DNA from: Methylocystis sp. Sn-Cys
Lineage (GTDB): Bacteria; Pseudomonadota; Alphaproteobacteria; Rhizobiales; Beijerinckiaceae
Direction: 5' to 3'
NCBI RefSeq assembly: GCF_016745395.1
Contig: NZ_JAERVJ010000010.1
Location: 1 to 64,000 of the forward strand
Length of the DNA stretch: 64,000 nt
This document shows positions 2,047-15,304 of this stretch, piece after piece. A model generated the notes under the pieces. The model ran no database searches and was not told the DNA's origin. It was given only the letters and a program-made list of their open reading frames with translations. The stretch's first letter is position 1. Each line of letters starts with the position of its first letter. Position numbers and translations under genes: made by a program.

Positions 2047-3021
2047 ATGGCGGCCACAGTGAGCGTCGCGGCCACCGCCCGGCTACATCTCGGTTTTCTC
2101 GACATGAACGGCGGGCTCGGGCGCAAATTCGGGGGGCTCGGCCTCTCCCTCGACGCGCCCGCCACGCGGCTGACCCTCGCCCGCGCCGAAGAGAATAGCG
2201 TCGAAGGGCCGGAGAGCGCGCGCGGCGCGCAGTTGCTGGCGCGGGCGCAGGCGGCGCTTGCGCCGGGCGCCGCCCATGCGCTGACGATCCACGAGGCCAT
2301 TCCCGCCCATTCCGGCTTCGGCTCGGGCACCCAGCTCGCGCTGGCGATCGCGGCCGCCTTGCGCCGTCTGGAGGATTTGCCGCATGATTCGGCGGCCGAC
2401 GCCGCGCTCATGTCGCGCGGCGCGCGCTCGGGGCTGGGCGCGGGCCTTTTCGTCACCGGCGGCGTCGTGGTCGACGGCGGGCGTGGGCCGGGGACGCTGA
2501 CGCCGCCGGTCATCGCCAGGAGCGCGTTTCCCGAAGCGTGGCGCGTGCTGCTCATTTGCGACCCGACTTGCGTGGGCCTGCATGGCGCGGACGAACGCGA
2601 GGCCTTTGTGGCGCTGCCGCCATCCAGCGCGGCGGAAAGCGGCGAGCTGTGCCGCCTCGTGCTGATGCAGGCGCTGCCGGCGCTCGCCGAGCGGGACTTG
2701 GCGGCCTTCGGGGCCGCTGTGGCGCGGATACAGGAGATCGTCGGCGATTACTTCGCCCCCAAACAGGGCGGCCGGCGCTTCACCAGCGCCAAGGTCGAAG
2801 CGGCGGTCGGGCGGTTGTCGCGTGAAGGCGCGACCGGCGGCGGCCAGACCTCATGGGGCCCGACGGGCTTCGCCTTCGTCGAGAGCGAGGCGGCGGCGCG
2901 GGAGATGGTCGCGCGGATCGAGGCGGAAGCGCGCGCCGAAGGGCTCGCGATCTCGATCCATAAGGGGCTCAACAGCGGGGCGAGGATCGACGCGGTTTAT
3001 GCGCAGGTGGCGTCGCGATAG
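2047..3021 (+). CDS. mptG: Beta-ribofuranosylaminobenzene 5'-phosphate synthase
   Basis: Catalyses the first committed step of tetrahydromethanopterin synthesis, joining p-hydroxybenzoate or p-aminobenzoate to PRPP with loss of carboxylate. The 324-residue GHMP-kinase-fold protein shows PAHSGFGSGTQ (86-96), the glycine-rich ATP-like loop, and a further glycine-rich stretch (RSGLGAGLF) about 40 residues later, as in bacterial RFAP synthases. The ATG at 2047 follows AAGGA at correct spacing. It is transcribed away from the pterin dehydratase across a roughly 110-bp divergent promoter region. The gene marks C1 metabolism through H4MPT, as in methylotrophic alphaproteobacteria. Confidence 0.9.
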   Translation: MAATVSVAATARLHLGFLDMNGGLGRKFGGLGLSLDAPATRLTLARAEENSVEGPESARGAQLLARAQAALAPGAAHALTIHEAIPAHSGFGSGTQLALAIAAALRRLEDLPHDSAADAALMSRGARSGLGAGLFVTGGVVVDGGRGPGTLTPPVIARSAFPEAWRVLLICDPTCVGLHGADEREAFVALPPSSAAESGELCRLVLMQALPALAERDLAAFGAAVARIQEIVGDYFAPKQGGRRFTSAKVEAAVGRLSREGATGGGQTSWGPTGFAFVESEAAAREMVARIEAEARAEGLAISIHKGLNSGARIDAVYAQVASR

Positions 3022-3089
3022 CAGCATAATCCAACGAAACCCTTGCCCGGATCGTTGACGCGCCGCGATCGAGGGAATTAATTGGATTC

Positions 3090-3491
3090 ATGGCTCTGCT
3101 CTCGCCACCGCGGCATCTTTCTCTCAGTGCAATTTGCGCCGTCGTGATCGCATGCCTGCTCGCGATCCAGAATCTGAGCTATGCGGCGCCCGCCGATTTC
3201 GGCGGGGACGCGATAAGCCATTTCGACAGGTGCTCGCAGACCCCGCTAGGCGACGACGGCCAGGCGCCATCGCGCCACCACCAGACGCATTGTTGGGCGC
3301 AATGTTGCCAGGGCGGCGGGCGCAATGGCGTTCTCGCCTTTATCGCCCGTTTGAGCGTCGCGGCGATTCTTGTCGCAGCTCCGGTCGAAAGCGCGCGCAG
3401 CGAAACGCCGCCCTTTCGCAACGATCCGCCGCGTCGACAAAGCGGCTGGGCGAGTTCCTGGTCGTCCCGCGCGCCCCCGGATTTTCTCTAA
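3090..3491 (+). CDS. DUF2946-like small Cys/His-rich exported protein
   Basis: 133 residues. The N-terminal hydrophobic segment (about 11-30) looks like a signal sequence or anchor. It is followed by a metal-binding-looking segment, C48 then RHHQTHCWAQCC at 62-73, a second hydrophobic stretch (80-97) and an arginine/proline-rich tail ending in RAPPDFL. This layout resembles DUF2946 proteins, which are frequent neighbours of TonB-dependent copper receptors, but I cannot run a profile, so the family call is tentative. It heads the sigma/anti-sigma/receptor cluster. TTGACG at 3055 with a poor -10-like TTAATT at 3078 may be its promoter. Binding of Cu or another soft metal is inference from composition and context. 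Confidence 0.55.
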   Translation: MALLSPPRHLSLSAICAVVIACLLAIQNLSYAAPADFGGDAISHFDRCSQTPLGDDGQAPSRHHQTHCWAQCCQGGGRNGVLAFIARLSVAAILVAAPVESARSETPPFRNDPPRRQSGWASSWSSRAPPDFL

Positions 3492-3624
3492 CAGGCGCAT
3501 ATCGTTTTCATCATCCGCGCGGACCTCGCCGGACCTTTCATTATTCTGCTCGATGGCTTCGAACGTCGCCGTTTGCGAGGGCATAGCGACCCAGTCATCG
3601 GTCTCTGAACCGTGGACATATCCA

Positions 3625-4119
3625 ATGTCCTTTTCTGATTCCCTTCGCGAACAGATCGCGCGCCAATCTCGGGACGTACTTCGATTCCTCACGCGCAGGG
3701 TGGGAGCGGAGGACGCCGCCGATCTCGCGCAGGAGGCGGTGCTCCGCGTTTTGCGCCATGCCGAAAGCGGAGCGGTCGCAAATCCGGCTTCGCTGCTGCA
3801 CATCACGGCCGCCAATTTGGCGAAAGACCTCGCCCGGCGACGACGAACCGAAAGCAAATATGTCGTGGCTGGCCTGACCGTCGATGATCTCGTGGGGCCG
3901 ACCGCCTCCCCGATCGCCCGACTCGAAGCCGAACAATCGACCTCGCGATTTTTCGAGGCTTTAGACGCCTTGCCGCCGCGGCGCCGCGAGGTTTTCATCA
4001 TGCGCAGGTTCGAGAATTTGCATCAGGAGGAAATTGCGCGGCGGCTTGGCATATCGCGCAATATGGTCGAGAAGCACTTGCGCGCGGCCTTCAAGGAGTT
4101 GAAGGAGGCGTTGAAATAG
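3625..4119 (+). CDS. FecI-type ECF sigma factor
   Basis: A 164-residue ECF sigma factor. The sigma-2 part includes DLAQEAVLRVLR (33-44). The sigma-4 helix-turn-helix lies at about 136-156 (EIARRLGISRNMVEKHLRAA). It is expected to direct RNA polymerase to the receptor gene downstream when released by the FecR-like partner, which starts 18 nt after its stop. I chose the ATG at 3625 because the protein then begins at the usual FecI length. Longer in-frame starts (for example 3553) add a tail without family character. The order sigma, FecR, TonB receptor with STN domain is the classical cell-surface signalling arrangement. The inducing ligand is probably copper, from the receptor's residues. Confidence 0.88.
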   Translation: MSFSDSLREQIARQSRDVLRFLTRRVGAEDAADLAQEAVLRVLRHAESGAVANPASLLHITAANLAKDLARRRRTESKYVVAGLTVDDLVGPTASPIARLEAEQSTSRFFEALDALPPRRREVFIMRRFENLHQEEIARRLGISRNMVEKHLRAAFKELKEALK

Positions 4120-4137
4120 AAATGCTAGAAACAGTTT

Positions 4138-5094
4138 ATGGCTGAGCGCAAGTCCGACGATCCCCAGGCCTCGGAACGCCTCGACGCGGCGATCGGCTGG
4201 TGGGTTCGCGTCGACGGGGGAGATTTGTCTGCCTCCGAGCTTACGGCATTCCGCGCATGGCTCGCCAGCGATCCGAGGAACGAAGCCGCCTTCGAGGAGG
4301 CCTGCGATTTCTGGGGCTCATGGCAGGCGTTGCCCCGGCACGCGGTAAGAAACTACCTTTCAACTCAGCCACCGCGCCGCCGGCGCAAGCGGCTTTGGCT
4401 GGCCGGCGCGATCGCGACGGCGGCGATCAGCCTCTTTTTCTCGTTCGACGAGCTTTGGATCTGGCGTCAGGCGGATTTCCGCACGGGCGTCGGAGAGCTA
4501 CGGGCCATCACTCTGCCGGACGGATCGCGCGCGCATTTGAACGCCGCCTCGGCCTTGGCGTTGAATTATGCCGGCGACCAGCGACGCGTGATATTGATGC
4601 GGGGCGAAGCCTGGTTTGAAGTCGAGAAAGACCCAAGCCGCCCCTTTACCGTCGAGGCCGCCGGCGGGGCGATCACGGCGCGGGGGACAGCCTTCGACGT
4701 CGCGATCAATAAGACGCGCATAGAAGTCACGGCCACGGAAAATAGCGTCGAGGTGACGGCAGAAGGCGCCTCGGTCCTCGTCAACCCTGGCCGACAGACC
4801 GCTTATGGCCCGAGCCTTCCGGCCATTCCGCCTTATGAGGTGGATTCGGAGAGCGTCACATCCTGGCGGCGTGGCAAGCTCATTTTCAAGGACAAGCCGC
4901 TGGGCGAGGTTATCGCCGCGCTGAGCCGCTTCCATCACGGCCTTATCGTCGTCGCCAATTCGGAAATCAGAGATCGACGCGTGACGGGCGTGTTCCGCTC
5001 AAATCAACCGCTCGACGCCGTGCGCGCCATCGAAACCTATCTCGGCATCAAATCCATCCATGTTTCGGATTATTTGATCCTTCTGCATTCGTGA
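4138..5094 (+). CDS. FecR-type anti-sigma/sigma regulator
   Basis: 318 residues with standard FecR layout. There is an N-terminal cytoplasmic helical domain (about 11-60, with WWVRVDGGDLSASELTAFRAW at its core), one membrane segment (86-103), a periplasmic FecR domain beginning near 114 (LPDGSRAHLNAASAL) and a C-terminal domain near 260-318 resembling the STN-like FecR tail. In the paradigm, the periplasmic part senses the STN domain of the ligand-loaded outer-membrane receptor and the N-terminus controls the sigma factor. It lies between its sigma factor (18-nt gap) and the receptor (109-nt gap). The start has only a weak ribosome-binding site, so coupling to the sigma gene is likely. Confidence 0.9.
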   Translation: MAERKSDDPQASERLDAAIGWWVRVDGGDLSASELTAFRAWLASDPRNEAAFEEACDFWGSWQALPRHAVRNYLSTQPPRRRRKRLWLAGAIATAAISLFFSFDELWIWRQADFRTGVGELRAITLPDGSRAHLNAASALALNYAGDQRRVILMRGEAWFEVEKDPSRPFTVEAAGGAITARGTAFDVAINKTRIEVTATENSVEVTAEGASVLVNPGRQTAYGPSLPAIPPYEVDSESVTSWRRGKLIFKDKPLGEVIAALSRFHHGLIVVANSEIRDRRVTGVFRSNQPLDAVRAIETYLGIKSIHVSDYLILLHS

Positions 5095-5203
5095 TAAAAA
5101 TATCACACCGAGCTTATTCTCTGCTTCTCGCTATCCTGTTTTTCGAACCTCCGCGTCTTGGGGACGGGCGAAACGCCCACACCGCTGAAACGAGGAGGCC
5201 AAA

Positions 5204-7903
5204 ATGGCGGGAAGAAAAAAATTCAGCATCTGGAGAGGAAACCCGACAAGGGCCGCGACGGCGATCGGCCTGTTCATCACCGCCTCTTCCGCCTTCGGCA
5301 TCGACAGTACGCCGGCGCGCGCGCATGTCTCGCCGCAAGCCTATGAAATTCCTGCCGGCTCCGTCGCCGATGCGCTCAATGTGCTGGCGGACGAGAGCGG
5401 CGCGCAGCTCCTTTATGACGCCGCCCTCACGCGTCACTTGAAGACCGCCGGCGTCTCCGGCCAGCACACGCTCGACGGCGCCTTGCGCAAGCTGCTGATC
5501 GGCACAGGGCTGACGTTCGAAATCGATCAGGGCGGCCGATCGGTTTCCATCGTGCTCGCCGAAGCAGACACAGGAAGGCGCAGCGACGCGAGCGGCGTGC
5601 ACGCACACCCGCTGCCGCCGATCGAGATCGGCGCCGCGCGCCGCGCGCGCACCACAGCCGCCCGTCCGACGACGGCGGTTGCGACGCCTCACCCGCCCGC
5701 GCCTGCAGGGCGCAACATCAGCCAGCCTGCCGGCGTCTCGACGGTCATCGACGATGTCGTAGCACAAAGCGCGACGACGAATGATACCGCGAGTCTTCTT
5801 CGTGATGTGCCGGGCGCTTTTGTCTACAACGCGGGCGGCGTCTCCAGCCTGCCGGTCCTCGACGGGCTCGCCGACGACCGCTTGCATGTCACCGTCGCCG
5901 GCATGCCCATTCTGGCGGCTTGCGCCAATCACATGAACCCGCCGCTTTCCTACATCGACCCGTCCAATGTCGGGAAAATCCAGGTCTATCCCGGCGTCGT
6001 CCCCGTCAGCGTCGGCGGTGACAGCATCGGCGGAACCATCCGCGTCGATCCACGGGCGCCGATATACGCGGCCCCCGGCCAGCAGGTGCTCGTCACGGGC
6101 GAGGCCGGCGCTTTCTATCGCAGCAACGGGAACGCCCTCGGCGGTCATCTCTCCGCGACTGTGGCGACCGATAATTTCAGCGTGACCTACAACGGCTCCT
6201 ACGCACAATCGCAGAATTATAAGGCCGCCGCGGATTTCCATCCCGCATGGTCGGCTTTTCTCACGCCTCCCTCGACCTTCCCGATCACCCGGCTCGGCGC
6301 CTACACGCCCTGGCTGACCGGCAATGAGGTTGGCGGAAGCGCTTACCAAACCCAGAATCACGACATCGGCTTTGCATGGCGGCACGAAAACCATCAGCTA
6401 CGACTCAATCTCGGTTTCCAGCATATTCCATATCAATGGTACCCCAACCAGCGCATGGATATGACGGAAAACCGCAGCATCCAGGGCAATCTTCGCTACG
6501 ACGGCCAATATGAGTGGGGCCTACTCGACGCGCAGGTTTATCATCAGACCGTCCGCCACATCATGGACTTCGGCGAGGATAAGCAGTTCTTCTACGGCAC
6601 CGTGAACACCATCGTCGCGCCAGGCATGCCGATGGACACCAAGGCGCAAAACACCGGCGCGAAAATCAACGCCAGCATCAATGTGACGGAGCGGGATATT
6701 TTGCGCGTTGGCGCAGAATATCAGCAGTACCGCTACAATGAATGGTGGCCGCCGTCCCCCGCCGTTCTCCCCCGGGGATTCACAATGGGCGGCATGGCCC
6801 CTGATACTTTCATAAACATCAATAACGGGCAGAGAGACCGTTTTGACGTGTATGCAGAGCTAGAGTCGCATTGGAATCGGGAGTGGACGACCCAATTCGG
6901 CTTTCGCAGCGACACCGTCCTGATGAACGCAGGGCCGGTGCACGGCTACAATACCGCCTACGACTCCAAGCCGATATTCCCCGCCACCCGTTTCAATCTT
7001 GCCGACCGCTCGCGCACCGATCAGAACTGGAACGCAACGGCGCAGGCCACCTACACGCCGAGCGCAACGCAGAGCTATTCGCTCGGTTACTCATTGAAGA
7101 GCCGCTCGCCCAATCTCTTCGAACGCTACACTTGGTCCAACGGCCTGATGGCGATGGAAATGATCGGGTGGTTCGGCGACGGAAACTTCTATATCGGCAA
7201 TCTGAACCTGAAGCCGGAAGTCGCCAACACGATCAGCGCGACGGCGGACTGGCATGACGCCAATGGGAGCATGAACCTGACGTTCACGCCCTATTTCACC
7301 TACATCTCGAATTACATCGACGTTCAAAGGTGCCCGTTCTCAGTGTGCGGAACGTCGCCAATGAACAATCCGTACAACACCTATGGGTTTACGTCGCTGC
7401 AATTCGTGAATCAAAACGCCCGCATCTTCGGCGCTGATCTTTCCGGCCGCGCGGTGTTGGCGAAAGACACGCCCCTCGGCGACTTCACGGCGAAAGGCAT
7501 CCTTGCTTACGTCAATGGCCAGAACATAACGACCGGCGGCAATCTCTATCAAATGATGCCAGTCAATGCGAAACTGTCACTCGAACAAAAAATGGGCGGC
7601 TGGACGAATGCGATCGAGGGGCAGTTCGTCGGCGCTAAGAAAAACATCGAGCAGGTCCGGAACGAATTGAAGACCGGGGCCTATGCCTTGTTCAATCTGC
7701 GCTCGAGCTATGAATGGGGCAAGCTCCGCGTCGATGTCGGCATCGATAACCTCTTCAACACGTTCTATTATTTGCCGCTCGGCGGCGCCTATATCGGCGC
7801 CGGCGCGACAATGTCGGGGCCTTTGCCGATCGCGCCGCCCTGGGGCATCGCCGTCCCGGGGATGGGGCGGTCGTTTTATGTGGCGACGAATTTGAAGTTC
7901 TGA
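5204..7903 (+). CDS. TonB-dependent outer-membrane receptor, OprC-like copper receptor with STN domain
   Basis: 899 residues: export signal (1 to about 40), STN signalling domain (about 47-107), low-complexity linker, plug domain (from about 175), and a 22-strand-type barrel ending in a C-terminal Phe. The plug carries C240-A-N-H-M244 and the barrel carries H452-I-M454. This is the CxxxM...HxM pattern known to bind copper in Pseudomonas OprC (C143, M147, H323, M325). I therefore infer a copper importer that also signals through the adjacent FecR/FecI pair. The ATG at 5204 follows a strong GAGGAGG. In a methanotroph, copper uptake would feed particulate methane monooxygenase. No methanobactin precursor or synthesis gene lies nearby. 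Confidence 0.88.
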   Translation: MAGRKKFSIWRGNPTRAATAIGLFITASSAFGIDSTPARAHVSPQAYEIPAGSVADALNVLADESGAQLLYDAALTRHLKTAGVSGQHTLDGALRKLLIGTGLTFEIDQGGRSVSIVLAEADTGRRSDASGVHAHPLPPIEIGAARRARTTAARPTTAVATPHPPAPAGRNISQPAGVSTVIDDVVAQSATTNDTASLLRDVPGAFVYNAGGVSSLPVLDGLADDRLHVTVAGMPILAACANHMNPPLSYIDPSNVGKIQVYPGVVPVSVGGDSIGGTIRVDPRAPIYAAPGQQVLVTGEAGAFYRSNGNALGGHLSATVATDNFSVTYNGSYAQSQNYKAAADFHPAWSAFLTPPSTFPITRLGAYTPWLTGNEVGGSAYQTQNHDIGFAWRHENHQLRLNLGFQHIPYQWYPNQRMDMTENRSIQGNLRYDGQYEWGLLDAQVYHQTVRHIMDFGEDKQFFYGTVNTIVAPGMPMDTKAQNTGAKINASINVTERDILRVGAEYQQYRYNEWWPPSPAVLPRGFTMGGMAPDTFININNGQRDRFDVYAELESHWNREWTTQFGFRSDTVLMNAGPVHGYNTAYDSKPIFPATRFNLADRSRTDQNWNATAQATYTPSATQSYSLGYSLKSRSPNLFERYTWSNGLMAMEMIGWFGDGNFYIGNLNLKPEVANTISATADWHDANGSMNLTFTPYFTYISNYIDVQRCPFSVCGTSPMNNPYNTYGFTSLQFVNQNARIFGADLSGRAVLAKDTPLGDFTAKGILAYVNGQNITTGGNLYQMMPVNAKLSLEQKMGGWTNAIEGQFVGAKKNIEQVRNELKTGAYALFNLRSSYEWGKLRVDVGIDNLFNTFYYLPLGGAYIGAGATMSGPLPIAPPWGIAVPGMGRSFYVATNLKF

Positions 7904-7928
7904 GTTCGCTGTGAATGTCGCATGAGAA

Positions 7929-7956
7929 AGAGCCCGGCGCCCAAGCGCCGGGCTCT
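7929..7956. terminator. Stem-loop terminator between convergent genes
   Basis: A perfect 12-bp GC-rich stem (7929-7940 with 7945-7956) closes a CCAA loop. It lies 26 nt after the receptor stop and 22 nt before the end of the convergent cytochrome gene. The T-rich tail is short on the + strand. It could serve both directions. Confidence 0.7.
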
Positions 7957-7977
7957 CTTCATTTCCTCGGGTGACCA

Positions 7978-8475
7978 CTAAGGAAGTGGCGTCGGTCGCG
8001 TGAAGACCCAGTCCTGATCTTTCACGGTTGAGTGGCAGGCCACGCATTCTTGGGCGAAACCGGCCTTGTCATAAGGCTTTTGCTGCAAACCAACCCATTC
8101 GCCCCAGCCCCAGCCGGCGGTGGCTGCGTATCTGGAGTCGTCCTTGATCATAAAGGCGGCGCTGCTGAAGGCGTCGGGGACTGTCGCCGCGGGAAATTGC
8201 CCGCTTTGCTTCTGTTTCCAGACGAGCTTGGCGAGAATGGCGCCGTTTGGCCAGGGGTTTATCTTTCCGGCGCGCGCCGCTTCGACAGCGATGTCATTGC
8301 CCAAAATGGCGCGCAGGCTTTGGTCATCCGAGCGCTGGGAAACGCCAATCATCCGGAAATTTTTATAAGCTGGGGGCAGCGCGATGCGCCCGCCGCCTGG
8401 CGCATTCGTCTCCTCGCCGTGCGATGAGGAAGCGAGCGCAAAAACCGGGACAAGCGGCAAAAGCCATTTTCTCAT
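7978..8475 (-). CDS. Cytochrome P460 family protein
   Basis: A 165-residue periplasmic mono-heme c-type cytochrome. It has a signal peptide (about 1-20), the P460-family core with NPWPNGAILAKLVWK (73-87), and a C-terminal heme-binding C144-V-A-C147-H148. P460 proteins oxidise hydroxylamine (to nitrite or N2O) using a heme cross-linked to a lysine. Related cytochrome c'-beta proteins lack the crosslink and bind NO. Which subgroup this is cannot be fixed by eye, although several lysines are available. In methanotrophs the role would be detoxifying hydroxylamine or NO made when methane monooxygenase oxidises ammonia. It is divergent from a MerR regulator across a 159-bp region holding a hairpin and a dyad. 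Confidence 0.85.
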   Translation of the reverse strand: MRKWLLPLVPVFALASSSHGEETNAPGGGRIALPPAYKNFRMIGVSQRSDDQSLRAILGNDIAVEAARAGKINPWPNGAILAKLVWKQKQSGQFPAATVPDAFSSAAFMIKDDSRYAATAGWGWGEWVGLQQKPYDKAGFAQECVACHSTVKDQDWVFTRPTPLP

Positions 8476-8513
8476 AGGGTTGGCTCCTCGATCGGAATCC
8501 GGGCAGAAAATAT

Positions 8514-8541
8514 GAAGCGAGGCCCTTTCGGCCTCGGCTTC
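8514..8541. promoter_or_regulatory. Hairpin in the P460-merR divergent region
   Basis: An 11-bp stem (8514-8524 with 8530-8541, one bulged G) closes a 5-nt loop, 39-66 nt upstream of the P460 start. It could be a leader hairpin or part of an operator. It has no T-run on the minus strand, so it is not a clear terminator. Confidence 0.4.
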
Positions 8542-8567
8542 GTGATTATCTATCTCAACGACACAAT

Positions 8568-8583
8568 CTAACGCTAACGTAAG
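8568..8583. promoter_or_regulatory. Imperfect dyad, possible MerR operator
   Basis: CTAACGCTAACGTAAG matches its own reverse complement at 12 of 16 positions and resembles the TACGT-based dyads bound by some MerR-family proteins. It sits between the divergent P460 and merR genes, 51 nt before the merR start. Binding is inferred from position and symmetry only. Confidence 0.35.
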
Positions 8584-8634
8584 AAAGTTGGCAATATGGC
8601 TATACGCCTCCCCCCTCGCGACCGGAGGGATGTC

Positions 8635-9096
8635 ATGAAAATCGGCGAGCTGGCCGAACGGCTCGACACGACGCCCAGAACGATCCGGCTTTACGAGGAG
8701 CTAGGGGTGATTGCGCCGGAGCGCACGCCCGGCGGCACCCGATTGTACCGCGAGAAGGATGCGAAGCGCCTCGAGGTCGCGTTGCGCCTGGCGCGGCTGG
8801 GAACAGAGCTCTGCGACATAGAGCGGCTTGCCCGAGTTCGCGAGGGCTGCGCGAGCGGCGCGGAGGCCGCAGTGAGCGTTTCCACGCTGCTCGGCGAGCT
8901 AAAGGAGTGGATAGATGAGACGTTGAACGATTTGAACGCTTTGAAGCTCGATCTTGAAACGGCGAACGCTCTCATCCGGCAATGTTCCAAGTGCCGGAAC
9001 AAACCTAACAGAAGCGCCTGTCCCGAGTGCCCCATGGATCGCAATGTCGAGTCGACCGATCTCGGCCGACTTATCTGGGACCCGGACTGCCCATAA
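8635..9096 (+). CDS. MerR-family regulator with Cys-rich C-terminus
   Basis: 153 residues. The N-terminal winged helix-turn-helix is typical of MerR (MKIGELAERLDTTPRTIRLY, 1-20, then YREKDAKRLE). A long dimerisation helix (about 85-115) follows. The effector end carries C117-x2-C120 and C129-x2-C132 plus C152, with C60 and C72 further upstream. Two CxxC pairs suggest a bound Zn or Fe-S site, or metal/redox sensing, though the ligand is unknown. The ATG at 8635 has GGAGG six bases upstream. Divergence from cytochrome P460 and the intervening dyad suggest it regulates that gene. Its stop is 4 nt from the end of the convergent YfhO-like gene. Confidence 0.85.
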   Translation: MKIGELAERLDTTPRTIRLYEELGVIAPERTPGGTRLYREKDAKRLEVALRLARLGTELCDIERLARVREGCASGAEAAVSVSTLLGELKEWIDETLNDLNALKLDLETANALIRQCSKCRNKPNRSACPECPMDRNVESTDLGRLIWDPDCP

Positions 9097-9100
9097 AGGC

Positions 9101-11416
9101 CTAAACGCCCGACCTTTGCCCTCGCCTGCGCGAAATCTCGCGCAACAGCCCCGGAACCGGCTGGAAGGTAAAGCGCACCTCGTGCCGCCCTTCCGGAATC
9201 GGCACCGCGCGGAATAGCACATTGGCGCGCAGAATCTCCGCCGCCTCGCCGTCGAGCGTCGCGAACCACCAGGGATGCCAGACGTCGTTGAGAATGAGCC
9301 AGCCGCCGCCGGGCGGGGCGTTGGTCTCGACCACGATCTCCGTATTGCCGTAAGAAACGAGCCGCGCCCGCGCGGCGTCGGGCGGCAGACCCTTACGCGT
9401 ATGGCAGAGCGGCGGCTCTTCGAGCAGCACCGTTTCGCGATAGTCGGCTTCCGGCCATTCGCCCGTCGCGACCATGCGCGCGAAATCGACATGCATGGCG
9501 CAGGTCGCGACCATCACGCGCGGATAGGCGCTTTTGTTCTCGTAGAGATGGACCTTGCCGATCTGCGTCAGCTCTTGCAGGTCGCCCGGCTTGTAATGCT
9601 TGTCGATCGCCTCGATCGGCACGCCCGTCGCGACATAACGCAGGCCCAACATGTCGGAGAGCGGCGAGCGATAGGCGGGAGAGAGCTTGGAGAACTCGCG
9701 CTGCTCCGGCAGCGCCACATGGTCGCCGGCGCCGGTCGCGTCCTCGAAGATCTTTAGACGGATCGGATTGTAGCCGAGATCGTGGTCGAGCCCATGGACG
9801 AGCGAGGCGTTGGGCCAGTGGAAGTCGATCGCCGCAAGCTCGACGCGGTCACGGCGATCCGGCGCTGCGTTCTCTTTCAGCTTCTCCTCGAGGAAAGCGA
9901 TCACCGGGTCTTTCGAATCTGTGCGAAGGACGTCGAATTGCTCCGGAGGCAAAGCGGTCGACTCATTGGGGCCGTTGCTGACCGCGAGATCGGCCGTCGC
10001 GAGCGCTGCGACGGCGGCCAGCAGCGCGAAGCCCCGCAGCCGCCCGGCGCCCACCGCGATGACCAACGCCGTCGCGCCCGCCACGAAAGCGGCGCTGATG
10101 GCGAGCGGCGCAAGGGCTTGCGCGAGATGCTCCCTTTTGGCGGCATAAGCGATGGCGAGCGCGAAAAGCCCCGCCAGGGCGCCGATGAGCAGAGGCGGAC
10201 GCGGCGCCGCCACACGACGCTCGATGAGCGTGAAGGCATAGCCGGCGAGGAGCGCGAAGGCGAAGCCGAAGAGGAAAGTGGCGTCGGCCGGCCGGCGCCA
10301 GAGATCGACGCCGGGGATATGGTAGAAAAAGGCGAAAGCGGGCGTGTAGCGGCCGAGCGCATAGAGCGAGAAGAAGAGAAGAGCGCCGGCGAAGAAGCGC
10401 GCTTCCCTTTCCGCAAAGAAGCCGCGCCCCAGCGCAGCGAGCGCGGCGACGAGGGGAATCGCCCCCGCATAGACGTTGGTCATATTGCGGGCGAGGAAAA
10501 GGTCCGGCTCGCCGACTGGCGGTCCCCAAAAGGCGGCAAGCGGCCCATCCGTCCCGAACATATTGGCCGAAAGAAGCGTGAAAAAGGACGCGGGCGGCAG
10601 CGAGCCTTTATAGGCGCCGTCGAGATCGATTTCGGGCCGATTGGAGTTAGCGGCGAGCTCCAGCGTGAAGGCGAGCGGCACAAAAATGATCGCCGCGCCG
10701 ACGACGGCGCCGGCGAGAAGCGGCGCAATGGCGGAAGCGACGGGGGCGTCGTCGGTTGCGATCCGGTAAAGCGCATAAGCCGCTAGCATCAGCACGCTCA
10801 AATACGCCACCTGATCGCGCCCGAGCACCATGAAGGCCGCGACCGCGCCGGCCGCCGCGCCATAGGCCGCCGAGCGGCGATCGAGCGCGCGCGCGAACAG
10901 CCATAATGTCACCGGCAGCCATGAGAAGCTCATGATCTGGCCCGTGTGCTGGATGCGCCAGGCCGCCGAGCCGCCGAAAGCGAAAGCGAGCGCCGCGATC
11001 AAAGCGCCCGCCGCACTCCAGCCGCGATCGCGGAAATAGGCCACCAGCGCGAGGCCGCCCATCGCCAGCATGCCGAAGACGATGGCGTCTTCCAGCACAA
11101 AGGACGGCTCTGGGACGAGCGCGGCGGCGAGAAGGAAAAACGGCGCGAAGATCAGCGACTGAGGATCGGCGATCTGCGGCATGCCGGCAAAGACATTGGG
11201 CGTCCAGAACGGCGACTGGCCCGAATGCAGCGCATGCGCCAGGAAGACGAATTGCGGCTGGAAATGCGCCTTCGCGTCCCATGGGATGGTGACGCGGCCG
11301 GAGAGCCAGGGGCAGGCGAGCGCCAACGCAGTGGCGAGAAAGAGAAGCGCGGCGAGGCCATAAGGCTCGCGGGTCTCGGCCTGTTCGATTTTCTTGTGCG
11401 GCGCAATCGTGCTCAT
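9101..11416 (-). CDS. YfhO-like polytopic membrane protein
   Basis: 771 residues with roughly a dozen hydrophobic segments through the first two-thirds and a large soluble C-terminal domain (about 560-771). A GT-C-like fold is suggested by the N-terminal loop holding WDAKAHFQPQ after the first membrane segment. This layout fits bacterial YfhO proteins, implicated in glycosylation of cell-wall or lipid-linked polymers in Gram-positives. The substrate here is unknown. I set the start at the ATG at 11416. The same frame stays open far upstream but reads there as Arg/Gly-rich sequence antisense to a TPR gene. It is convergent with merR and divergent from the TPR gene. Confidence 0.75.
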   Translation of the reverse strand: MSTIAPHKKIEQAETREPYGLAALLFLATALALACPWLSGRVTIPWDAKAHFQPQFVFLAHALHSGQSPFWTPNVFAGMPQIADPQSLIFAPFFLLAAALVPEPSFVLEDAIVFGMLAMGGLALVAYFRDRGWSAAGALIAALAFAFGGSAAWRIQHTGQIMSFSWLPVTLWLFARALDRRSAAYGAAAGAVAAFMVLGRDQVAYLSVLMLAAYALYRIATDDAPVASAIAPLLAGAVVGAAIIFVPLAFTLELAANSNRPEIDLDGAYKGSLPPASFFTLLSANMFGTDGPLAAFWGPPVGEPDLFLARNMTNVYAGAIPLVAALAALGRGFFAEREARFFAGALLFFSLYALGRYTPAFAFFYHIPGVDLWRRPADATFLFGFAFALLAGYAFTLIERRVAAPRPPLLIGALAGLFALAIAYAAKREHLAQALAPLAISAAFVAGATALVIAVGAGRLRGFALLAAVAALATADLAVSNGPNESTALPPEQFDVLRTDSKDPVIAFLEEKLKENAAPDRRDRVELAAIDFHWPNASLVHGLDHDLGYNPIRLKIFEDATGAGDHVALPEQREFSKLSPAYRSPLSDMLGLRYVATGVPIEAIDKHYKPGDLQELTQIGKVHLYENKSAYPRVMVATCAMHVDFARMVATGEWPEADYRETVLLEEPPLCHTRKGLPPDAARARLVSYGNTEIVVETNAPPGGGWLILNDVWHPWWFATLDGEAAEILRANVLFRAVPIPEGRHEVRFTFQPVPGLLREISRRRGQRSGV

Positions 11417-11506
11417 GCTCGGCTTCTTAACGCTTAAGCGCCACGACGCAAAATACCACAGCCTCTCTCCGCCCCCTCTTGCTGGCGCCATGTTTGCGAC
11501 GGCGCG

Positions 11507-12049
11507 ATGGGGGAAATTTACGGATGGATGGCCGCCGATATGGATATTTTTCGCGAGGTGGAGGGCGTCGATTTCGGGACCCTGCCGGGGCCGGTAGACA
11601 CATTGCTGCAGCAGGGCGTCGTCGCTTATCGCAGCGACAAAGCGCGCGCGGATCGCTTGTTTCGACAAGCGCTGGATCTCGCGCCAGAAGCGCTCGCCGC
11701 CTATTTCTGCCTGTATAAAATCCACACATACATGGGCAATCTCGAAACCGCCAAAGCCGCCGCGCTGGACGGCATGCGGGAGGCGGCGCGCCAGGCCGGC
11801 TGGCCGGACGATCCCAAGCTCTGGCCGGCGGGCCAATCCCATACGGACGGTCCGGCGCGATTTGCGCTCTTCACGCTGAAGGCCTTGACCTTCATCGAGC
11901 TGAAACGCGGCGATCGGAGCACGGCGGACGCGCAGCTCAGGATTCTCTCGATCGTCGATCCAGCGGGAAGCGTCGGCTGGCCGGTCATCGCAGCGCTCGC
12001 GGAAGGAGCTGCCAGCGCGAGCGGGATGCATTCTCCCCGATTGTCGTAA
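11507..12049 (+). CDS. TPR-like hypothetical protein
   Basis: 180 residues, mostly helical. A TPR-like unit is visible at about 34-75, where an ADRLFRQALDLAPEALAAYFCLYKIHTYMGNLETAKAA-type pattern has the expected small and large residue spacing. It has no signal peptide or membrane segment. Start alternatives at 11525 or 11540 would shorten the N-terminus slightly. Function is unknown. It lies between the divergent YfhO-like gene and an ABC export operon, 76 nt ahead of the latter with a strong hairpin between, so it may or may not share that transcript. Confidence 0.65.
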   Translation: MGEIYGWMAADMDIFREVEGVDFGTLPGPVDTLLQQGVVAYRSDKARADRLFRQALDLAPEALAAYFCLYKIHTYMGNLETAKAAALDGMREAARQAGWPDDPKLWPAGQSHTDGPARFALFTLKALTFIELKRGDRSTADAQLRILSIVDPAGSVGWPVIAALAEGAASASGMHSPRLS

Positions 12050-12078
12050 ATGCGACGGGCGCAGCGAGACGCTTTCGC

Positions 12079-12114
12079 CTATATGATGGTTGGGCTCCCG
12101 CAACCATCATATAG
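12079..12114. promoter_or_regulatory. Perfect 14-bp inverted repeat over the ABC operon leader
   Basis: Arms 12079-12092 and 12101-12114 pair perfectly around an 8-nt GC-rich loop. The 3' arm ends inside the only plausible ribosome-binding site (AGAGG, 12113-12117) of the ABC gene starting with TTG at 12126. No T-run follows, so this is more likely an operator or translation-control hairpin than a terminator. Confidence 0.55.
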
Positions 12115-12125
12115 AGGCCTTTCGC

Positions 12126-12842
12126 TTGCACGCTCCGTCGACCCGCGCTGAAACGGCCTCGCTGGACACGCTTTCAGCTCCGCTGCTGCGCGTCGTCAAT
12201 CTGCGCAAATCCTACGCGACGCCGCAAGGCGCGCTGCCCGTGCTGCGCGGCGTCGGCCTCTCGCTCGCAGCGGGCGAGACGCTCGCGCTGATGGGAGAGT
12301 CGGGTAGCGGAAAAAGCACGCTGCTGCATCTGATCGGCGCGCTCGATGACGCCGATGGCGGTGAAATCATCCTTGATGGCGTCAACATCACGGGGCTGCC
12401 GGAACAGGCGCGCGCCGCGCTGCGCCGCGAGACGATCGGCGTCGTCTTTCAGCAGTTCAATCTTATTGCGAGCCTCACGGTCGCCGAGAACCTCGCCTTT
12501 CAAGCCCGGCTTGCTGGGCGCCTCGATCCACACTGGCAGGCGCGGCTCACGCATCGCCTCGGCCTCGACGCTCTCGTCTCGCGCTATCCCGAGCAGCTTT
12601 CGGGCGGACAGCAGCAGCGCGTCGCCGTCGGACGGGCGCTGGCGGCGCGGCCGCAGCTTCTGCTGGCCGACGAGCCGACCGGCAATCTCGACGAAGCGGC
12701 CGGCGACGCCGTTCTGGCGTTGACGCTGGAGCTCGTCGCCGAGACGGGCTGCGCTTTTCTCATGGTCACCCATAGCGCTCGTCTCGCCGCGCTTTTGTCG
12801 CGCCGGGAGCGGCTCGTCGCCGGAGCGCTCGCGACATCATGA
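12126..12842 (+). CDS. ABC transporter ATP-binding protein, LolD/AttE-like
   Basis: A 238-residue ATPase with Walker A GESGSGKS (57-64), the LSGGQQQR signature, Walker B LLLADEPTG and the switch histidine in the VTHSAR segment. This is the class that pairs with FtsX/MacB-type permeases to move lipoproteins or other envelope molecules. I chose TTG at 12126, with AGAGG eight bases upstream, over an ATG at 12090 that falls inside the hairpin and has no ribosome-binding site. It overlaps the permease gene by ATGA. With the permease and the AttH-like protein it forms a three-gene operon resembling the Agrobacterium att ABC genes. Confidence 0.88.
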   Translation: MHAPSTRAETASLDTLSAPLLRVVNLRKSYATPQGALPVLRGVGLSLAAGETLALMGESGSGKSTLLHLIGALDDADGGEIILDGVNITGLPEQARAALRRETIGVVFQQFNLIASLTVAENLAFQARLAGRLDPHWQARLTHRLGLDALVSRYPEQLSGGQQQRVAVGRALAARPQLLLADEPTGNLDEAAGDAVLALTLELVAETGCAFLMVTHSARLAALLSRRERLVAGALATS

Positions 12843-15304
12843 GGCAGACGTTCTTCGCGCTGGCGGCTTTGCTCAGCCATTGGCGTCGCCACCCCACCAA
12901 TCTCGCCATGCTCGTGCTCGGTCTCGCCATCGCCACCGCGCTGTGGAGCGGCGTGCAGGCGCTCAACGCCCAGGCGCGCAGGAGCTATGACAACGCGGCG
13001 GCCGTGTTCACCGGCGGCGGCGCGCAGAATATCGTCTCGACGAGAGGCGGGCTTTTTCCGCAGTCGCTCTTCGTGACGTTGCGGCGCGCCGGGGTGAAGG
13101 TTTCGCCCGCGCTGGAAGGAACGGCTCGGGTCGGCGCGCGGAATATTCGACTGATCGGCATAGAGCCCGTCACGCTTCCCGCCGCGACGACGCTCGCGCC
13201 ATTGCGCGAGAGCAAGGAGGCGACGAATATTCTCACCGGCGAGGGCCGGAGTTTCGCCGCCCCGCAAACCTTGCGCGATCTGCACATCTCGGAGGGCGCG
13301 CGGATCGTGACGGAGCGCGGCTTTACGCTGCCGCCCGTCTACGCCATCGGCGCCGCCCCGCCCGGCGCCGTCATCGTGGACATCGGCGTCGCGCAAAAGG
13401 CGCTCGACAAGCCGTCCCGCCTCTCGCGATTGATCCTGCCGCCTCAAACCCGGCTCGACGCCACGCGGCTGACGGCGGTTGCGGGCGATGAGCTGCGGCT
13501 CGTCGAGCCGGACGAGGAGAGCGATCTCTCGCGCCTCACCGATAGTTTCCATCTCAATCTCACCGCCTTTGGCCTGCTGGCTTTTCTCGTCGGCTTCTTC
13601 ATCGTCAACGCCTCCTTCGGGCTGGCATTCGAGCAGCGCCTGCCGATGGTGCGCACCTTGCGCGCGCTCGGCGTCTCGATTCGCGCGCTCGTCGCCGCAT
13701 TGTTTTGCGAGCTTGCGGCCTTCACGCTTCTGGCGGGCGGGCTCGGCGTCGTCGGCGGCTATTTCATCGCGGCCGCGCTGCTGCCGGATGTCGCCGCGAG
13801 CCTCGAAGGGCTTTATGGCGCGCAGCTTCCGGGACAGTTGGCGCTCGACGCGCGCTGGTGGCTTTCGGGTCTCGGCATGGCCGGCGCCGGCGCGCTGCTC
13901 GCGGCGGGAAGCGGCTTATCGAAGACTCTTCGGCTGCCCGTGCTTTCAGTGGCGCGGCCGATGGCTTGGCGCGATGCGCACCACCGCTATCTGCGCCGAC
14001 AGGCTGCGCTTGCGGCGCTCGCGCTCGTCGGCGCGACGCTCGCCTATTCTTTCGCCGAAGGGCTGGCGATGGGCTTCGCCGTCATCGCGCTCGCGCTGCT
14101 CGCCGCAGCCCTCTTCCTGCCCGTGGCGCTCGCGGCGATCTTATGGGTCGGGGAAAGCCTTGCGCAGCGCCCGCTGGCGCGCTGGTTCTTTGCGGATGGC
14201 CGGCAGGAGATCCCCGGTCTCTCGCTCGCTTTGACGGCGCTGCTTCTTGCGCTCGCGACCAATATCGGCGTCGGCGGCATGGTCGAAGGCTTCCGCCAGA
14301 CCTTCACGGGCTGGCTGGATCAACGTCTGGTCGCCGAGGTCTATTTCGAAGCCGCAACGCCCTCTGACGCGCGCGAGATCGAAGCCTGGGCGAAGGAGCA
14401 GCCGGAGATCGCCGCCATTCTACCTGTCTGGCGCACGAAGACGCGCATTTCCGACTGGCCCGTCGAAATCATCGGCTTGGCGCCGCATCAGACCTATTCC
14501 GCGCATTTCACCCTGCTCGAAGGCGGCGAGGACGCCTGGCGCGCGCTGCACGACGAAGACGCCGCGCTCATCAGCGAACAGCTCGCGCGGCGCCTGAAAA
14601 TCGGCCTCGGCGCCATGCTCGACATTCCAACGCCGCAAAACTTATGGCGCGCGAAGGTCGTCGGCATTTTCCCCGACTACGGCAATCCGAAAGGGCAATT
14701 GCGGATCGACCATGCGAGGCTCGCCGAGCATTTCTCGGACGCTTCCGGCGTGCATTATTCACTGCGCGTGGCGCCGGCGAATGTCGCGCCCTTGATGGAG
14801 AAGATGCAAAGCCGCTTCGGACCAAAGCTCGCGCGCCTCATCGACAATGCCGGGATCAAGAAAATCTCGACCAATATTTTCGAGCGGACCTTCACCGTCA
14901 CCACGGCGCTCGACACGCTCACCCTTATCGTCGCGGCCATCGCGCTCTTTGCCAGCCTGCTGACGCTCAGCAATCTGCGACTCGCGCATATTGCGCCGGT
15001 GTGGGCGATTGGCGTCACGCGCCGTCGGCTCGCCGGGCTCGAGCTGTTGCGCATGCTGCTGTTTGCGTCGGGCGCGGCGCTGATCGCAATTCCCCTTGGC
15101 CTCTTCATGACCTGGAGCCTCGTCGCCATCGTCAATGTCGCCGCCTTCGGCTGGCGCCTGCCGATGCATGTCTTTCCGTTGCAATGGGGCGCGGTCTTTG
15201 TCGTCGCGCTCCTCACTGCGCTTTTTGCAGCGACGATCCCCGCCCTGCGTCTGGCGCGCTGCGCGCCGGTCGATCTGTTGAAGGTGTTCGCCAATGAACG
15301 GTAG
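12839..15304 (+). CDS. FtsX-type ABC transporter permease
   Basis: 821 residues. Membrane segments occur at about 18-38, around 245-270, 290-320, 345-365, 390-440 and 470-490, and a C-terminal block of three lies at about 690-815. Large extracytoplasmic loops lie at 40-240 and 500-680. This duplicated FtsX arrangement is that of large LolC/E-related permeases. The ATGA overlap with the ATPase gene indicates translational coupling, and its last 11 nt overlap the earliest possible start of the AttH-like gene. The system presumably extracts or exports an envelope substrate with energy from the ATPase. The cargo is unknown. Confidence 0.85.
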   Translation: MRQTFFALAALLSHWRRHPTNLAMLVLGLAIATALWSGVQALNAQARRSYDNAAAVFTGGGAQNIVSTRGGLFPQSLFVTLRRAGVKVSPALEGTARVGARNIRLIGIEPVTLPAATTLAPLRESKEATNILTGEGRSFAAPQTLRDLHISEGARIVTERGFTLPPVYAIGAAPPGAVIVDIGVAQKALDKPSRLSRLILPPQTRLDATRLTAVAGDELRLVEPDEESDLSRLTDSFHLNLTAFGLLAFLVGFFIVNASFGLAFEQRLPMVRTLRALGVSIRALVAALFCELAAFTLLAGGLGVVGGYFIAAALLPDVAASLEGLYGAQLPGQLALDARWWLSGLGMAGAGALLAAGSGLSKTLRLPVLSVARPMAWRDAHHRYLRRQAALAALALVGATLAYSFAEGLAMGFAVIALALLAAALFLPVALAAILWVGESLAQRPLARWFFADGRQEIPGLSLALTALLLALATNIGVGGMVEGFRQTFTGWLDQRLVAEVYFEAATPSDAREIEAWAKEQPEIAAILPVWRTKTRISDWPVEIIGLAPHQTYSAHFTLLEGGEDAWRALHDEDAALISEQLARRLKIGLGAMLDIPTPQNLWRAKVVGIFPDYGNPKGQLRIDHARLAEHFSDASGVHYSLRVAPANVAPLMEKMQSRFGPKLARLIDNAGIKKISTNIFERTFTVTTALDTLTLIVAAIALFASLLTLSNLRLAHIAPVWAIGVTRRRLAGLELLRMLLFASGAALIAIPLGLFMTWSLVAIVNVAAFGWRLPMHVFPLQWGAVFVVALLTALFAATIPALRLARCAPVDLLKVFANER

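Follow-up and report, generated by a model that had tools for sequence, protein, structure and literature searches.

A putative copper-sensing leader ORF ahead of a FecI/FecR operon with an OprC-like receptor in Methylocystis

How might a TonB-dependent receptor that carries copper ligands be coupled to a FecI/FecR surface-signalling pair, and what would tell such a system how much copper the cell already holds? A locus of Methylocystis sp. Sn-Cys raises these questions. We analysed a stretch of 64,000 nucleotides of contig NZ_JAERVJ010000010.1 (the window) and compared its operon with related loci.

Layout of the operon

The genes for an ECF sigma factor, a FecR-type anti-sigma factor and an STN-bearing TonB receptor form one row, all on the plus strand. 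The original prediction had placed this row at 3625-7903, and its coordinates, gene order and residues held. The adjacency of the three genes on one strand, with all domains above the Pfam cut-offs, also bears out its claim of a dedicated FecI/FecR pair, and the sigma start at 3625 was backed by its ortholog. The predicted range was incomplete: its three genes are real, and the first gene of the operon, a leader ORF at 3090-3491, had been left out. The features are as follows.

3055-3083, plus strand: putative RpoD-like promoter, TTGACG (3055-3060), 17 nt spacer, TTAATT (3078-3083)
3090-3491, plus strand: leader ORF of the CruR/CutF type, 133 aa, with a hydrophobic N terminus, HHQTHCWAQCC and the end SSWSSRAPPDFL
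3492-3624, plus strand: gap between leader and sigma gene, 133 nt
3614-3630, plus strand: hairpin GGACAT-ATCCA-ATGTCC over the sigma start codon, the same hairpin occurring in genome G089
3625-4119, plus strand: FecI-type ECF sigma factor (Pfam sigma-70 r2/r4 and NCBIfam sigma70-ECF above cut-off)
4138-5094, plus strand: FecR-type anti-sigma factor (PF04773, FecR; PF16220, DUF4880; PF16344, FecR_C; all above cut-off)
5095-5203, plus strand: gap between fecR and receptor, with TGTTTTTCGAACCTCC, which may be a candidate sigma-dependent promoter
5204-7903, plus strand: TonB-dependent receptor with STN (5405-5536), plug and barrel (STN, Plug and barrel above Pfam cut-off)
5921-5923, 5933-5935, 6557-6559 and 6563-6565, plus strand: codons of the receptor ligands C240, M244, H452 and M454
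7929-7956, plus strand: putative terminator-like stem downstream of the receptor, strong, with 12 pairs, from a pattern scan in which terminator-pattern matches were no commoner than in shuffles

The leader ATG lies 6 nt past the promoter TTAATT, and we observed TTGAC 34-38 nt upstream of the leader ATG in 9/9 operons compared. The conserved spacing and the position of the ATG suggest a housekeeping promoter and a leader mRNA that is probably leaderless. We considered and rejected the idea that every leader operon has a hairpin at the start codon; the hairpin occurs in the window and G089 and is not general. Overall, the RNA of the leader-sigma gap folded no better than its shuffles. Between fecR and the receptor, related operons share a T-run, mostly followed by ACCTCC; a search for a sigma-dependent promoter motif ahead of their receptors returned this recurrent element and identified no promoter. 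A dyad, GTGATAAAAATATCAC, spans the fecR stop codon at 5091-5106 and is largely retained in G089 (GTGACAAAAATACCAC).

Copper ligands and fold of the receptor

OprC was the first PDB match of the receptor, with ACANHMNPPLSYIDP aligned to ACPNRMDAPTSYISP (phmmer). Profile-profile alignment with four plasmid OprC homologs (probability 99.9, E 4.6e-32) set C240/M244 over the C/M of the OprC plug and H452/M454 over the HxM of the OprC barrel. OprC binds ionic copper at this CxxxM-HxM site (PMC8610252). All four residues were invariant in 19 receptors (that of the window and 18 homologs collected by overall similarity). They were likewise invariant in a second alignment of 80 family receptors, a set for which the search patterns drew in part on the C/N/M and MDM positions and left out H452, M454 and M477. 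The OprC-type motif that had been predicted from the receptor sequence was thus recovered, and by these alignments it exceeds chance.

On the OprC equivalog model TIGR01778, the receptor scored 83 bits against a cut-off of 472. It failed the equivalog test, and we therefore treat it as a distant relative of OprC and do not file it as an ortholog. The siderophore receptor profile TIGR01783 gave no match in the receptor. A structural model predicted from the alignment of the family (mean pLDDT 69.9, pTM 0.72) had OprC at Foldseek ranks 1-28, with E down to 7.5e-40, and heme receptors and ZnuD behind; VIA of model and OprC gave Z 40.9 and rmsd 2.4 over 596 residues. Judged on this predicted model, the OprC fold is the best match by a clear margin. 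The receptor is like the OprC/NosA copper receptors of P. aeruginosa and P. stutzeri in its plug CxxxM, barrel HxM and fold. Unlike the window receptor, which scores far under the TIGR01778 cut-off, OprC has no STN and no FecI/FecR.

A receptor tree, of the kind that the original prediction had proposed, grouped the receptor family with OprC and split it from MbnT and siderophore receptors by a 100/100 branch. Within the family, STN occurred in two separate subclades, one with the window, G089 and FeB_33 and the other with G078 and G146, and it was missing from the G128 receptor, which is 69% identical to that of the window. The signalling module has therefore been gained or lost more than once. 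We know of no earlier case in which a receptor whose ionic copper site is of the OprC type could signal through FecI/FecR.

The leader ORF and its link to one FecI/FecR subfamily

The leader carries a signal peptide, CxxxC, and RAPP three residues ahead of the stop; its C terminus is GWASSWSSRAPPDFL, with RAPPDFL at the very end. The DUF2946 profile covers leader residues 11-130 (E 0.011, 16.9 bits, under the 23.7 cut-off) and matches 8/9 related leaders. RAPP was invariant in 9 leaders and was their most conserved part, the operon leaders being otherwise 21-53% identical to that of the window. R[AG]PP at most 6 residues from the stop was found in 2/324 window ORFs of at least 100 codons. Compared with its G089 ortholog, the leader differs at the three codon positions by.33/.25/.55, with 45 synonymous changes, a pattern that indicates a real gene under coding selection.

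CruR of Bordetella is a DUF2946 protein with RAPP three residues ahead of its stop, and its nascent chain together with copper turns the copper receptor operon off (PMC9426467). RAPP arrest has been demonstrated in vitro for CruR (PMC12992588). Like the DUF2946 uORF of Bordetella pertussis (bp2923-bfrG-bp2921), the window leader is the first gene ahead of a copper receptor, and the two share a signal peptide, a Cys motif, the RAPP three residues ahead of the stop and a long gap after the ORF. They differ in that the leader has CxxxC(C) rather than CxxC, 53 rather than 45 residues to RAPP, FecI/FecR as the next genes and a probably leaderless mRNA. Identification as CruR proper (CxxC ~45 residues ahead of RAPP) was rejected, and because its spacing differs we do not give the leader that name. 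CutF of Rhodobacter capsulatus has CxxxC as well (PMC9973294) and resembles the leader in its C-terminal proline motif and as an exported nascent sensor; unlike the leader, CutF acts on a multicopper oxidase, and its response to copper is a rise in expression. The leader provides a separate line of evidence for copper, and with it the regulatory logic of the operon changes.

DUF2946-like leader ORFs show an unusual expansion in the Sn-Cys genome, which has no fewer than twelve of them, almost all with R[AG]PP at the end. They lie (contig:position) at C20:119324, C14:484979, C14:481659, C8:608833, C8:697307, C8:608247, C8:340646, C8:410063, C17:261165, C17:63331, C13:41898 and window position 3090.

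We gathered FecR genes with PF16220 from 11 Methylocystis/Methylosinus genomes and 20 other genomes of the family. Operons were split by sigma score, a resemblance to the window sigma of at least 95 bits defining the leader-type subfamily; a split by FecR score was set aside because its low group took in truncated genes, and the sigma-score counts are used here. A leader was present in 30 of the 31 operons with a window-like sigma, the sole exception being locus L266. Among these upstream ORFs, 28 end in RAPP and one in QAPP; in the remaining one, RAPP stands 16 residues ahead of the stop. Where operons had other sigma factors, the leader was missing in 12/13. At locus L260, which has a fragmented fecR, the ORF that fits the mechanical pattern ends in TAPPI; it has no leader similarity and was therefore not counted. 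FecIR operons of other Alphaproteobacteria had no leader (0/27). In the FecR tree, leader-linked genes formed one clade (99/99) with a single loss within it, and all three canonical FecR genes of the Sn-Cys genome fell in this clade. FeB_33 (twice), G089, G078 and G146 share the order leader, sigma, FecR, STN receptor, the second FeB_33 copy having a different receptor type.

Leaders are also found apart from FecI/FecR. CxxxM-HxM receptors without FecIR frequently stand right behind a RAPP or RGPP leader. Plasmid OprC genes, too, have a leader immediately ahead of them, of the DUF2946 kind, and in having a leader they resemble the window operon. Leaders ahead of OprC-type receptors are already known (PMC9426467); in the open-licence PMC literature searched we found none ahead of FecI/FecR operons. 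Each part of the operon has a known relative; the combination, and the near-exclusive tie to one FecIR subfamily, are absent from the open-licence literature searched.

Several further loci show how these parts are arranged. On contig C13 of the Sn-Cys genome, a second CxxxM-HxM receptor, with no STN or FecIR, stands right behind its own RAPP leader (L118, 6429-9306, minus strand). On C14 (L210, C14:9001-29000, at 2912-14117), leader and sigma lie ~2.5 kb from their FecR, with an MbnT-like STN receptor on the opposite strand; this locus is a rearranged leader-FecIR operon. The FecR nearest to that of the window outside its genus (L259, Methylosinus trichosporium OB3b C1:1073501-1079000) lies beside a siderophore-type receptor, which suggests that the leader-FecIR base stays fixed while its receptors are exchanged. 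On plasmid pMpar-2 of Methylocystis parvus OBBP (L300, 3811-10930), genes for a TonB receptor and for a copper-binding protein of the MbnP family come after leader, sigma and FecR, and the latter neighbour is a further copper link for leader operons.

Methanobactin operons carry the leader as well. Genome G146 is that of M. trichosporium OB3b, and a locus on its second contig is letter-identical with part of plasmid NZ_CP023738.1. The mbn locus of G146 encodes MTVKIAQKKVLPVIGRAAALCGSCYPCSCM, which we take to be the OB3b methanobactin precursor. The OB3b mbnI-R-T-A-B operon is headed by such a leader (L167, 15430-15867, minus strand, end ESSWSRAPPAALC), and so is the mbn operon (mbnI-R-T) of G078. 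On the OB3b chromosome contig this mbn leader spans about 1,510,430-1,510,867; another OB3b leader, at L116 7222-7611, belongs to the OprC-like operon of that strain. In the Sn-Cys genome, a sigma factor is fused to a methanobactin precursor, above both NCBI cut-offs, and this sigma-MbnA gene also has a leader upstream. PLSDB lists no gene for the leader on the OB3b plasmid, whereas for Methylosinus sp. C49 the leader is entered as a hypothetical protein, GYH34_RS18480. OB3b MbnI/MbnR/MbnT resembles the window in its ECF sigma, its FecR of the same clade, its STN receptor for copper and the leader in front; OB3b MbnT, unlike the window receptor, is of the siderophore type, has a copper chelate as its substrate and lacks the CxxxM-HxM site. 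OB3b has 19 FecR N-terminal matches, and the majority belong to leader-linked FecIR operons whose STN receptors are of the siderophore or MbnT type; this set may serve the strain as a repertoire for copper chelates of foreign origin.

A proposed copper circuit and its alternatives

The data lead us to think it somewhat probable that the operon serves copper acquisition with two copper inputs, in a Fec-like arrangement in which a copper-sensing leader takes the place of Fur. The window shares with the ferric citrate system FecI/FecR/FecA the order sigma, FecR, STN receptor and the same proposed signal path; it differs in that copper ligands replace citrate binding and the leader replaces Fur control. 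As the conserved TTGAC suggests, a housekeeping promoter would transcribe leader, fecI, fecR and receptor. Going by the aligned ligands, the receptor would bind copper at its OprC-like CxxxM-HxM site and import it with TonB. The STN of the loaded receptor would then touch FecR and free the sigma factor for transcription of the receptor and perhaps other genes, by analogy with Fec and with OB3b MbnI2/R2/T2, where a copper-chelate ligand signals through STN, FecR and sigma via MbnT2 (PMC9601215). In a copper-replete cell, copper on the CxxxC of the nascent leader would, as in CruR, relieve the RAPP stall, and transcription would end before fecI. The operon would thereby respond to copper as an AND gate, with uptake high only when copper is outside and lacking inside.

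The sign of the leader response is the weakest step of this scheme because CutF acts in the opposite direction. Were the leader CutF-like, copper would strengthen the stall, open the hairpin at the sigma start and raise expression. The CxxxC, as in CutF, is consistent with this, and so is the hairpin that covers the start codon of the sigma gene in the window and in G089. CutF, however, serves a detoxification gene, whereas uptake is the business of CruR and of the leaders of OprC type. The hairpin, moreover, is not general, and the 133 nt that part leader and sigma gene make a long gap, like the 162 nt of CruR, so that we consider a CutF-like response unlikely. The small ORF could also be an ordinary periplasmic copper-binding protein from the operon rather than a regulatory leader, given its signal peptide, its Cys/His cluster and the coding selection on it. 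This is very unlikely in our estimate: the terminal RAPP is the most conserved part across operons whose leaders are otherwise 21-53% identical to it, and the ORF is always the first gene, with a long gap after it.

The nature of the substrate admits other readings. The receptor might import a copper chelate, methanobactin or another chalkophore, with FecIR sensing the chelate and not ionic copper; most other receptors with leader-FecIR are of the siderophore/MbnT type, and MbnT2 signals a copper chelate (PMC9601215). This is doubtful for the window receptor, which falls outside the MbnT type and carries the ligands of OprC for ionic copper. Grouping with heme/hemoglobin receptors, and uptake of heme or another metal, would agree with the heme models TIGR01786 and TIGR01785, which outscore TIGR01778 on the receptor. 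The four ligands are nonetheless invariant and aligned with OprC, and the first 28 Foldseek ranks all go to OprC, with heme receptors and ZnuD further down, which makes a heme receptor extremely improbable.

Copper sensing by the leader would bear on a wider question. Kenney and Rosenzweig (2013) proposed that MbnIRT would require a negative regulator that binds copper, a possible trigger of the copper switch (PMC3621798), and we found none named in the open-licence PMC literature searched. The RAPP arrest-peptide leader, in a proposal that we hold to be about evenly balanced between right and wrong, would be the copper sensor that has been missing on the cell side of copper-uptake signalling in methanotrophs. 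This leader would gate the expanded FecI/FecR subfamily, including OB3b mbnI-R-T-A-B and the OprC-like receptor, as Fur gates ferric systems. If this reading is true, the leader is a candidate for the regulator role that those authors had none for (PMC3621798). Because it is a small gene in exactly the right place, and OB3b is a model methanotroph with working genetics, the question of the missing regulator is directly testable. The leader also flags which FecIR systems of Methylocystis/Methylosinus genomes likely serve copper.

The original prediction had further linked the locus to methane monooxygenase. Sn-Cys has the genome of a methanotroph, with pmoB and the sigma-MbnA fusion present. 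A control link to pmo was not supported: we found no sigma target gene, and the only pmoB of the genome lies on another contig. Directly downstream of the receptor are a cytochrome P460 gene (7981-8475, minus strand) and a MerR-type regulator (8596-9096, plus strand).
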